Positions 11,170 through 39,692 of a stretch of DNA of 64,000 bases are shown here, in pieces. Position numbers and translations under genes: made by a program. Below the pieces are notes generated by a model. The model had not been told where the DNA came from, did no database searches, and saw nothing but the letters and a program-made list of their open reading frames with translations. Every line of letters starts with the position of its first letter. The stretch's first letter is position 1. The stretch comes from an uncultured Alphaproteobacteria bacterium (GTDB lineage Bacteria > Pseudomonadota > Alphaproteobacteria > Rs-D84), in assembly GCA_944389495.1 (NCBI GenBank), contig CALXMN010000001.1, positions 1-64,000 of the forward strand, given 5' to 3'.

Positions 11170-11448
11170 TTATTCTAATGGACAGATTTCGGTAAATTCA
11201 TATGTGCCGGTTGTATCGGTGTATTCTGTGTTCGCCGGTGCGTACATTATGCAAAAACCGTCGGGTGCGGTGGTCAGACAACTGGTCACCGTACCACCAG
11301 ATAGGTAACCCGTCGGACAGGACCAAGGCGCGATAATTGTATCTTTTTCTTCGGCCTGTATATATCCATTTGGGCACGTGGTCAGTGGTTCGGCCGCAAT
11401 TGCGGTGCGGAATATCGGTAATATACATAAAAACAAAGATTTTTTCAT
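11170..11448 (-). CDS. Small secreted Cys-rich protein B1 (CPNGY-repeat family)
   Basis: A 92-residue exported protein: signal peptide MKKSLFLCILPIFRTAIA, then two CP(N/T)GY repeats and a conserved tail CIMYAPANTEYTDTTG ending CPLE. The paralogue at 39414-39692 has the same repeats and tail. The start at 11448 is preferred to the ATG two codons earlier because AGGAGG lies just upstream and overlaps the first ATG. It is the second gene of a two-gene operon, 19 bp after the gene at 11468-11890. The function is unknown; the cysteine spacing suggests a small disulfide-bonded extracellular or periplasmic domain. Confidence 0.72.
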   Translation of the reverse strand: MKKSLFLCILPIFRTAIAAEPLTTCPNGYIQAEEKDTIIAPWSCPTGYLSGGTVTSCLTTAPDGFCIMYAPANTEYTDTTGTYEFTEICPLE

Positions 11449-11467
11449 ATGCATCCTCCTTGTCTGT

Positions 11468-11890
11468 TTAAATAGATTTTATCAGCGAATATCTGAATGG
11501 TTGATTTGCTGTTATTTGTTTTGCGCATTCTTCTGCGCATCGGCTGGTACAGGAAAGGCTGTTGCTAAATGAAAATGCTTTTACCCAGTTTGACATAACG
11601 GGGTGAATTATTTTGCAGTAACAATGCCGATTGTTGTTTTGCGTTGTTGCATCGATTTGCAGATGGGTTAGTGCGCCCGAGTTGTCTTCAGAAGAGCATC
11701 CTGCAATACCGTCGATAACCGTTTCTTTGTTGTTTGTGTCACAATTGGTGCGCCAATCATATGCACCTTTAAATACACCGGCACTGCATTTTGTAAGTCC
11801 GGAATCCAGTGCCACGCACTTTACAACGGCCGCGGCCGGCGGAATCGCGACCACACACAACGCACCTGCGATTAGTAAATATTTTTTCAT
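11468..11890 (-). CDS. Small secreted Cys-rich protein A1
   Basis: A 140-residue exported protein. The signal peptide (MKKYLLIAGALCVVAIPPAA) and the first mature residues VVKCVAL are almost identical to those of the paralogue at 38961, while the rest has diverged strongly, keeping only cysteine positions such as the GCSS and CYCK motifs and a C-terminal Cys cluster. The ribosome-binding site GGAGATAAGA is the same in both. Its leader is the structured RNA at 11921-12098, which ends in a terminator 31 nt before the ATG, so expression is probably controlled by attenuation. No known family is recognised. Confidence 0.74.
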   Translation of the reverse strand: MKKYLLIAGALCVVAIPPAAAVVKCVALDSGLTKCSAGVFKGAYDWRTNCDTNNKETVIDGIAGCSSEDNSGALTHLQIDATTQNNNRHCYCKIIHPVMSNWVKAFSFSNSLSCTSRCAEECAKQITANQPFRYSLIKSI

Positions 11891-11920: not shown

Positions 11921-12098
11921 TAAAGAAAAACCACCGAATTTTTTAGGTGGTTGGAGTTTAAGAACAATTGATCGAATTGCGTGGCTTATTCAATATATTC
12001 ACCACACTCCAACCGCGCGGGTTGGATTTATTTTACGTCCGTATTACCAGACGCGATCAATGGGTTCTTAAGCCCAATGTGGAAACACCCCACATCAG
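11921..12098 (-). promoter_or_regulatory. Structured leader RNA with attenuator, copy 1
   Basis: The minus strand shows, in order: a 5' hairpin (ATGTGG/CCACAT), a GGG/CCC hairpin at 12062-12075 whose loop CTTAAGAA can pair with TTCTTAA near 11958-11965, a GCGTCTG/CGGACGT hairpin, CCAACC/GGTTGG, a GTGTGG/CCACGC hairpin with the conserved GAATATAT...GAATAAG loop (11985-12000), and CAATT/AATTG. It ends with CTCCAACCACC leading into the terminator AACCACC/GGTGGTT plus U-tract. GGTTGGAG can pair either with the upstream CCAACC or with CTCCAACC, which overlaps the terminator arm, an alternative-pairing switch. Copies at 38762 and 26616 support the helices by compensatory changes. Confidence 0.8.
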
Positions 12099-26615: not shown

Positions 26616-26846
26616 AAAAAGGGCGGGAATGCCCGAATTTGTGGAGATAAGATGGACATTCCCACGGCAGGTTACATATATTTGTAACAGGTGGTTGGAG
26701 GTTCAAAACTATATCAAGCAAATAGCGGAACTTATTCGATATATTCGTTCCCCTCCAACCCGATAAGCAATTGGTTGGCAGGATTTTAACGCAACCCGGT
26801 GCGCGCCTGATAGAGGTTTTGATGCCTCGCATTGATTCCCAATGCC
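26616..26846 (-). ncRNA. Structured RNA copy 3, probable free-standing small RNA
   Basis: Minus-strand homologue of the leaders at 11921 and 38762, with no gene behind it. Helices keep their places with new sequences: GCATTG/CAATGC, GAGG/CCTC whose loop TCAAAA pairs with TTTTGA downstream, GCGCA/TGCGT, CCAACC/GGTTGG, GGAAC/GTTCC around the same GAATATATCGAATAAG loop, CTAT/ATAG, and GGTTGGAG/CTCCAACC. The attenuator arm is missing; instead a GTTACA/TGTAAC hairpin and a 10-bp hairpin (GGGAATGTCC/GGGCATTCCC) follow, ending in GCCC plus five T. The loop of that last hairpin contains TCTTATCTCC, complementary to the RBS of both small secreted-protein operons. It occupies most of the 458-bp gap 26473-26930. 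Confidence 0.72.
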
Positions 26847-26851
26847 ATATT

Positions 26852-38727: not shown

Positions 38728-38756
38728 TTGCGTTGGTATGGCTAATACGATAATAT
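38728..38756 (+). promoter_or_regulatory. Promoter of structured leader copy 2
   Basis: TTGCGT (38728-38733), a 17-bp spacer and TAATAT (38751-38756) precede the RNA; the sequence TATAAATAC after it is shared with copy 1. Confidence 0.65.
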
Positions 38757-38761
38757 AAATA

Positions 38762-38940
38762 CGTCGGTGGGTGTTCCGCCGATGGGCTTAAGAACCCTTT
38801 ACACGCGTCTGATTCAGACGTTAAACAAAACGTCCAACCATAACGGTTGGAGTGTGGTGAATATATTGAATAAGCCACGCAATTCGTGTAATTGTTCTTA
38901 AACTCCAACCACCTGAAAATTTTTGGTGGTTTTTTCTTGC
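38762..38940 (+). promoter_or_regulatory. Structured leader RNA with attenuator, copy 2
   Basis: Elements in order: CGGTGG/CCGCCG hairpin; GGGCTTAAGAACCC (38784-38797), loop pairing with TTCTTAA at 38895-38901; CGTCTG/CAGACG (38806-38820); CCAACC (38834) with GGTTGG (38845); GTGTGG/CCACGC (38852-38880) enclosing TGAATATATTGAATAAG; CAATT/AATTG (38880-38894); CTCCAACC (38903-38910); terminator AACCACC/GGTGGTT plus T-tract (38907-38936). GGTTGGAG (38845-38852) can pair with CTCCAACC, which shares AACC with the terminator stem, so the two folds exclude each other. It fills most of the gap 38602-38960. Confidence 0.8.
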
Positions 38941-38960
38941 AGAAAAAAGGAGATAAGAAT

Positions 38961-39398
38961 ATGAAAAAATATTTATTAATTGCGGGTGCGTTGTGTATGG
39001 TCGCGATTTTGCCGGCGGCGGCCGTTGTAAAGTGCGTGGCATTAAAGCCCGGCGAAACCACTTGCAGTGGCCCCAGTTTAAGTCCGGGTACGAATGAATG
39101 GACAACAACGTGTACAACAAATGGTACAAATGTGCCAGTCAGTGGTATAATCGGGTGTTCGTCCGTCCGCGGCAGTTATGTTGGGGCCACTGTTGATGAA
39201 TTACCAACAAATGTAAGAGCAGATGAAACGGTATACTGTTGGTGCAAAATGACAAGTCCCGCTGTATCAAAATGGACGTATCGTACATCTTGGAGCGATG
39301 CAGAAACTTGTTTGAACTCTTGTGCCCCTAATTGTGCAAATGCATTTTGGACGACGGATGGATTCAGTGATGGAATGTTTTCGTCTTTGTATGATTAA
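38961..39398 (+). CDS. Small secreted Cys-rich protein A2
   Basis: A 145-residue exported protein, paralogue of the one at 11468-11890. The signal peptide and mature start (MKKYLLIAGALCMVAILPAA, then VVKCVAL) are nearly unchanged, also at the DNA level, but the remainder differs apart from the cysteine framework (SGIIGCSSVRG, YCWCKM, and a C-terminal CLNSCAPNC). GGAGATAAGA serves as RBS, 4 nt before the ATG. It stands directly behind structured leader copy 2 and forms an operon with the gene at 39414. The function is unknown; export and Cys content suggest a secreted, disulfide-bonded product. Confidence 0.75.
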   Translation: MKKYLLIAGALCMVAILPAAAVVKCVALKPGETTCSGPSLSPGTNEWTTTCTTNGTNVPVSGIIGCSSVRGSYVGATVDELPTNVRADETVYCWCKMTSPAVSKWTYRTSWSDAETCLNSCAPNCANAFWTTDGFSDGMFSSLYD

Positions 39399-39413
39399 AC
39401 AGGGGGGGCAGAT

Positions 39414-39692
39414 ATGAAGCATTTATTTGTTTTTATATTGGCGATCGCGCCGTGTGCATCATTTGCCGCCGCGCCGTCAACATCGTGTCCATCCGGTTAT
39501 GTTGCCATAGAAGAAGAATATATGGCCATAGCGAATACTTCGTGCCCATCGGGTTACACATCCGCCGGCGCCGCGGCCAGTTGTTTAATTACCTCGCCCA
39601 CGGGGTCGTGCATTATGTACGCGCCGGCAAATACAGAATATGACGATGTCGCGGGTGTGTATCTGTTTACCGCCGCGTGTCCGTTGGAATGA
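39414..39692 (+). CDS. Small secreted Cys-rich protein B2 (CPSGY-repeat family)
   Basis: A 92-residue exported protein with signal MKHLFVFILAIAPCASFA and two CPSGY repeats separated by about 20 residues. The conserved tail CIMYAPANTEYDDVAGVY ends CPLE, as in the paralogue at 11170-11448. The gene follows protein A2 by 15 bp with a GGGGGG-containing RBS, copying the gene order of the other locus. A shared tail next to variable partners suggests that the A and B products interact or are exported together. Confidence 0.73.
   Translation: MKHLFVFILAIAPCASFAAAPSTSCPSGYVAIEEEYMAIANTSCPSGYTSAGAAASCLITSPTGSCIMYAPANTEYDDVAGVYLFTAACPLE

Follow-up and report, generated by a model that had tools for sequence, protein, structure and literature searches.

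Riboswitches and attenuators, among them the T-box and the c-di-GMP GEMM riboswitches, of which the latter are used many times per genome, combine a 5' position with a conserved core, mutually exclusive antiterminator and terminator pairings and a multi-copy regulon. All of these features recur in the RNA described here, which differs from them in that it matches no riboswitch family in Rfam. Another described RNA that invites comparison is sRNA-Xcc1 (RF02221), published as a trans-acting small RNA of 88 nt (PMC2996969), a transcript without the 5' half seen in our leader. In Xanthomonas integrons, it is reported to precede symE on the same strand, in the most widespread of the cassettes (PMC12444791), and it has been interpreted as a trans-acting, even exported, virulence sRNA (PMC12189769); in a search that was thin on subscription literature, we found no paper treating it as a leader. 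The SymE/SymR type I toxin-antitoxin system (PMC12444791) is comparable insofar as one of our loci (L210) carries the RNA before a SymE protein. However, SymR is antisense to symE, whereas the RNA studied here is a leader, and SymE was not found among the scanned downstream proteins of Enterousia.

The genome under study has a size of 0.9 Mb and belongs to the GTDB order Rs-D84, in which it is placed by kinship next to Candidatus Enterousia metagenome-assembled genomes (MAGs). Members of this order are described as animal-gut symbionts or parasites with reduced genomes (PMC12306168); the leader RNA is not mentioned in that paper. Our analysis started from the first 64,000 nt of contig CALXMN010000001.1, referred to below as the window.

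The leader RNA, its cassettes and its distribution

Two cassettes of the window share the order promoter-like -10 element (GATAATATAA, located by eye near 38749 in copy 1), 175-nt leader RNA, Shine-Dalgarno (SD) sequence and genes for two secreted proteins, A and then B (Table 1). The sequence-only reading had placed RNA, A and B correctly on both strands, and its description of a constant front holds, the two leaders being 79% identical in DNA and codons 1-27, which encode the signal peptide and the first mature residues, 93%. Likewise, B1 and B2 both contain two CPxGY motifs and a CIMYAPANTEY stretch. What it missed are an orphan leader on the minus strand at 26655-26847, which adjoins no plausible ORF on the same strand, and about 23 copies outside the window. 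The main and unusual finding is the leader RNA rather than the protein variation.

Table 1 Features of the window and elements of leader copy 1
Feature	Position	Strand	Observations
Leader RNA copy 1	38762-38936	+	174-position covariance model, full length; R1 E 2e-33; fold z -6.8
Protein A1 gene	38961-39398	+	Signal peptide; mature domain of 124 aa, Cys-rich, assigned to no known family
Protein B1 gene	39414-39692	+	Secreted; two CPxGY motifs
Leader RNA copy 2	11924-12097	-	Covariance-model match
Protein A2 gene	11468-11890	-	Aligns with A1
Protein B2 gene	11170-11454	-	Partner of A2 in cassette 2
Leader RNA copy 3, orphan	26655-26847	-	Covariance-model match; usual U-tract terminator lost
P1, 5' terminal hairpin	38764-38782	+	7/7 pairs with double-sided changes; 96.9% paired
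P2 hairpin (stem GGG/CCC) and its loop L2 (UUAAGAA, about 38789-38795)	38784-38797	+	P2 3/3 double changes; L2 pairs with K2b
Strand X, complementary to P7 loop L7	38799-38806	+	Nested in copy-1 MFE fold
P5a, CCAACC; competes with K5b for GGUUGGAG	38834-38839	+	Three-strand comparison
P5b = 5' strand of K5, GGUUGGAG, shared switch strand	38845-38852	+	Covariation; three-strand comparison
P6 hairpin, near-invariant 15-nt loop GAAUAUAUUGAAUAA (38859-38873)	38854-38878	+	Stem 5/5 pairs with double changes; loop a candidate recognition site
P7 hairpin, variable loop L7	38880-38894	+	Double-sided changes in 4/4 outer pairs; 99.8% paired
K2b, pairs with L2 (pseudoknot) or with AUAAGAAU after the SD	38895-38901	+	L2-K2b 7/7 pairs double-changed, 91% paired
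K5b, CUCCAACC; pairs with GGUUGGAG (antiterminator), terminator stem or SD	38903-38910	+	Covariation; duplex and hairpin energies
Terminator-like hairpin AACCACC/GGUGGUU with U tract, overlaps K5b	38907-38935	+	-9.0 kcal/mol
Shine-Dalgarno GGAG and AUAAGAAU, complementary to K2b-K5b	38949-38960	+	Duplex -12.5 kcal/mol

Further copies of the leader occur both in the genome and in its relatives. With R1, a covariance model built from eight leader copies, 24 copies were detected in the own genome (E < 0.002), and a search with RF02221 added two more (L251, L252), giving a total of about 26, some of them arranged in tandem. Related genomes contain up to 45 copies, and at least one copy is present in at least 135 of the 142 genomes of the order, copy counts in this survey being lower bounds. 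In other alphaproteobacterial orders, weaker matches were obtained in thirteen genomes; seven such loci were inspected, and in most of them the layout is clearly retained while the helix sequences differ, with pilin-like, lipoprotein and beta-barrel genes downstream. Pattern matches in Acinetobacter and in a Clostridia MAG (L108, L109) were discarded, as the covariance model did not confirm them. Two viral contigs (L242, 710-737; L245, 4178-4205) carry an identical P6 loop, GAATATATTGAATAA, on an unrelated 12-bp closing helix, and this RNA stands before an ORF of 67 amino acids. Overall, the leader represents a well-supported multi-copy RNA with switch-like features that has not been described before.

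In the relatives, most copies stand before a gene, and in most copies a start codon with an SD sequence follows about 25 nt past the RNA at nearly constant spacing. Applied to 128 non-redundant downstream ORFs, a crude hydrophobicity rule classed 69 as probably secreted and 51 as short, non-secreted proteins; a few helix-turn-helix proteins were thereby miscounted as secreted. A Pfam analysis of 102 downstream ORFs revealed helix-turn-helix domains in about 20, besides List_Bact repeats, a YadA anchor, beta-barrels, one GmrSD and one glycosyltransferase. Judged from these assignments, the regulon would comprise mainly envelope proteins and small regulators. A family of secreted proteins under a common leader had been proposed from the window; this part of the proposal is supported by about 20 A genes and by the position of the RNA before genes, and control extends further than was thought, since the RNA is also found in front of genes for small helix-turn-helix proteins, for secreted proteins of unrelated kinds and for a few enzymes. 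The accompanying idea of diversification is not supported, pN being below pS (see below).

Structure, exclusive pairings and proposed mechanism

The minimum free energy (MFE) of the copy-1 leader is -67.1 kcal/mol compared to -40.7 ± 3.9 kcal/mol for shuffled sequences (z -6.8). In an alignment of 108 copies, standard pairs make up 95.8% of the cells (shuffles, 75.9%; slid controls, 37-45%), and double-sided changes occur in 34 of 38 pairs (shuffles, 23.5 ± 1.6; slid structures, at most 17); the aligned copies are related, so that cell counts and p values overstate their independence. The L2-K2b pseudoknot covaries although it is absent from the search model. Compensatory change is found in all helices and indicates selection on the RNA structure. 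In several more distant genomes (L203-L207), the P6 internal-loop strands AAAUAAG and GAAUA occur, as judged by eye, in the order opposite to that of Enterousia, around an extra stem; this swapped order suggests that the P6 loop is a recognition module, as if entered from the other side.

The strand GGUUGGAG has two mutually exclusive partners, P5a upstream (helix P5) and K5b downstream (helix K5). As this region is badly aligned by the covariance model, a count of P5 pairs on that alignment is uninformative and the exclusive pairing was tested on unaligned sequences instead: in the few copies where GGUUGGAG is replaced, P5a, P5b and K5b have changed jointly (L139, L143 and L174, and by eye also L145, L119 and L106). 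A hairpin with a U tract occupies the terminator position before the ORF in 160 of 168 leaders. The hairpin of copy 1 was not listed by a simple consensus terminator scan of the plus strand because its loop exceeds the length allowed by the scan. Two marks of an attenuator are present, an intrinsic terminator ahead of the ORF and an alternative pairing that excludes it and shows compensatory change. In the nested MFE fold of copy 1, P5 and the terminator occur together, representing the predicted OFF fold.

Taken together, the leader is probably a bistable cis-acting element that decides expression by transcription attenuation, with some masking of the ribosome-binding site (RBS). In one fold, P5 would sequester GGUUGGAG, leaving K5b (CUCCAACC) free, so that the AACCACC/GGUGGUU-U6 terminator could form and transcription would stop. 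In the other fold, GGUUGGAG would pair with K5b, and K5, P6 and P7 would pack into a compact core, with L2-K2b and X-L7 as docking pseudoknots; the terminator stem would be cut to 3 bp and polymerase could read through. In some of the copies, among them those of both window cassettes, the 3' arm, when free, may also pair with the SD region. A putative ligand or protein would shift the balance between the folds, probably via the near-invariant loop of P6, and with its many copies per genome the RNA would control small helix-turn-helix proteins as well as proteins that are secreted or at the surface. Whereas structure, exclusive pairing, genomic position, the relation to RF02221 and cis-specific pairing are shown by comparison of sequences, we infer termination, read-through, the signal and the assignment of the ON fold. 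The 5'-end position, the very stable fold and the presence before many operons per genome would also suit an element without a switch, one that targets polymerase or RNases and so causes processive antitermination or affects the stability of the transcript, but the conserved competition for one strand, together with a terminator and in relatives with the RBS, makes such a function highly improbable.

The near-invariance of the P6 loop hints at a candidate recognition site. C-di-GMP was considered as ligand; GGDEF genes are absent in all 21 genomes of the same genus, the control genomes being positive, which argues against it.

Pairing with the RBS bears on the question whether the RNA acts in cis or in trans. 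In Enterousia, K2b fits its own SD region with a score of 8.12 compared to 7.39 ± 0.22 for swapped partners (p 8e-4), and the pairing is clear for only about 10 of 69 distinct K2b sequences. Sequestration of the RBS as a general rule in Enterousia was therefore rejected, as it holds for a subset only, and the terminator is the more general output. In 30 RF02221 loci from other Proteobacteria, the 3' arm reaches -30.3 kcal/mol with its own upstream L2-X element (swapped, -22.7 ± 0.6 kcal/mol) and -21.6 kcal/mol with its own pre-ORF/SD region (swapped, -17.2 ± 0.55 kcal/mol). This complementarity within loci favours cis action, as far as sequence comparison can speak for it. The orphan copy and the tandem copies may leave room for a role in trans, and a trans-acting sRNA that pairs with the RBS of other mRNAs via L7/K2b, its position in front of genes being secondary, would also account for the promoter-like -10 and the terminator of its own, and for the 88-nt transcript seen in Northern blots of Xanthomonas (PMC2996969). 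Such an sRNA would, however, explain neither the near-constant distance to the ORF start in most copies nor the preference of the 3' arm for its own SD region over those of other loci, and the conserved exclusive pairing that involves the terminator would have no obvious role; we regard it as unlikely and retain attenuation in cis as the preferred interpretation.

Relation to sRNA-Xcc1

An Rfam scan at gathering level assigned no family to the leader, and a permissive scan of five Enterousia-type loci yielded chance matches only. RF02221 emerged only when divergent loci were scanned, two of which align across the whole model with 40.0 (L066) and 33.8 bits. The best score in the own genome is 39.7 bits, and all scores stay below the gathering threshold of 53 bits. 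The orphan copy of the window also matches RF02221. The own genome contains four matches (E 6e-6 to 1.4e-4), two of them on copies also found by R1. The other two, L251 and L252, are new copies with a 5' half visible upstream, preceding a lipoprotein and a secreted protein; they represent a second, RF02221-like type in the same genome and thus form a bridge between the two groups.

The 87-nt Rfam model corresponds to the 3' half of the leader, K5-P6-P7-K2b-K5b. K5 encloses P6 and P7 in the cmscan alignments of two loci and according to covariation. Shared with sRNA-Xcc1 are, in the same order, the closing helix K5, P6 with an A-rich GAAUA/GAAUAA loop, P7, K2b and K5b. The P2/L2 hairpin and X are shared as well: most of the 30 loci have an upstream hairpin resembling GGGG-L2-CCCC and an X strand, which match the K2b and L7 of the same locus. 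In L221, L227, L228, L229, L238 and L239, the SD region nearly repeats L2-X, with the SD replacing CCCC. In contrast to sRNA-Xcc1, the Enterousia copies score 34-40 bits at a cut-off of 53 and have a 3' terminator, a short P6 loop, GGUUGGAG/CUCCAACC instead of a GC-rich K5, many chromosomal copies and genes for secreted proteins downstream. A terminator with U tract is absent in 28 of the 30 RF02221 loci, and the output stage thus varies by lineage.

The ORFs at the RF02221 loci include SymE, Bro-N, P22_AR_N, KilA-N and Rha proteins. In phage records, the RNA is located about 30-36 nt before ant or another coding sequence (CDS) on the same strand, as in Rac-SA53 (RNA, then ant) and VPBES (misc_RNA 'sRNA-Xcc1', then CDS). 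In phages and other Proteobacteria, the RBS region would mimic L2-X, allowing the 3' arm to pair with either one ahead of antirepressor, KilA-N, Rha or SymE genes. Mobility by integrons in Enterousia was rejected, since only XerC/D-like matches were obtained and none of 30 genomes had an integron integrase (TIGR02249) over the cut-off.

Rfam models only the 3' half, and the literature on that family describes a trans-acting RNA. By this comparison, sRNA-Xcc1 seems to represent the 3' half of a switch that acts in cis; the 88-nt RNA would then be either a processed form or a 3' half with its own promoter. More tentatively, and with somewhat less than even confidence, we propose a single ancient ligand- or protein-sensing switch class, hidden in Rfam as sRNA-Xcc1, that would regulate phage antirepressors, SymE cassettes and the secreted-protein regulon of Enterousia, its 3' arm engaging either a decoy upstream or an RBS mimic or terminator downstream. 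The leader is remotely related to RF02221, and this relation calls the accepted role of that family into question.

Proteins A and B and possible recombination at the front

From the window alone, the mature A proteins had appeared barely alignable beyond their cysteines. This is overstated, as A1 and A2 align over 122 residues with 34% identity (E 5e-21), and 22 members of the family share KCV, YCWCKMxSPAVSxW and LSD motifs besides the cysteines. In the own genome, the family has about 20 genes. Protein A has no Pfam domain and no sequence match in PDB, and its AlphaFold model (pLDDT 82) showed no significant fold match in PDB or BFVD; for protein B, only EGF/CC-like matches were obtained, all below threshold. 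In all ten pairs analysed pN is below pS; there is no excess of non-synonymous change and no sign of diversifying selection along A, and a hypervariable A family was dismissed. The A proteins form an ordinary family that can be aligned and has a mosaic front.

In five paralogue pairs, pS is 0.10-0.40 in the front and 0.63-0.81 in the mature part, and L134/L143 show the reverse, synonymous divergence being higher in the front. Leader distances do not track those of the mature genes. L138 and L150 share a different front of 35 codons (MQWHSNRGIIMRFLKGIFLFGITIALCPPA); in their mature parts, synonymous divergence is close to saturation. The contrast in both directions bears on the suspected recombination near codon 27: it speaks for recombination or gene conversion close to the boundary of the signal peptide, and the constant front seems partly recombinational, though 26 codons are few and constraint on early codons may contribute. 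In a more far-reaching version, the DNA of leader, promoter and signal peptide would serve as a recombination substrate for shuffling mature modules, similar to antigenic variation, and the RNA fold would be incidental. The divergence contrasts, the alternative front of L138/L150 and the unrelated leader and mature distances are compatible with this, but the same RNA precedes unrelated genes that lack the constant front, the compensatory changes described above reflect selection on RNA structure, and there is no sign of diversifying selection, so that we consider this version very unlikely.

In L149 and the A genes at C3:31821 and C3:15636 of the own genome, the leader is present and a stop codon lies inside the protein gene, showing that the family contains pseudogenes. 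Three A-family loci without leader RNA (L253, C3:25000-26600; L254, C4:56300-58000; L255, C4:104700-106300) are preceded by another repeated inverted element (TGCCGAAT..AAACGTCC ... GGACGTTTGGATTCGGC), which may constitute a second family of leaders.

If the interpretation as a switch is true, a presumed symbiont or parasite with a genome of 0.9 Mb and about 26 copies of a 175-nt RNA, mostly on secreted proteins, has an unusual global regulon, which would provide a handle on the dealings of these gut bacteria with their partners. The link to sRNA-Xcc1 offers a directly testable new reading of that RNA and ties it to phage lysogeny genes, and an orphan switch of such size and frequency is a good candidate for a new class of signal-sensing RNA.
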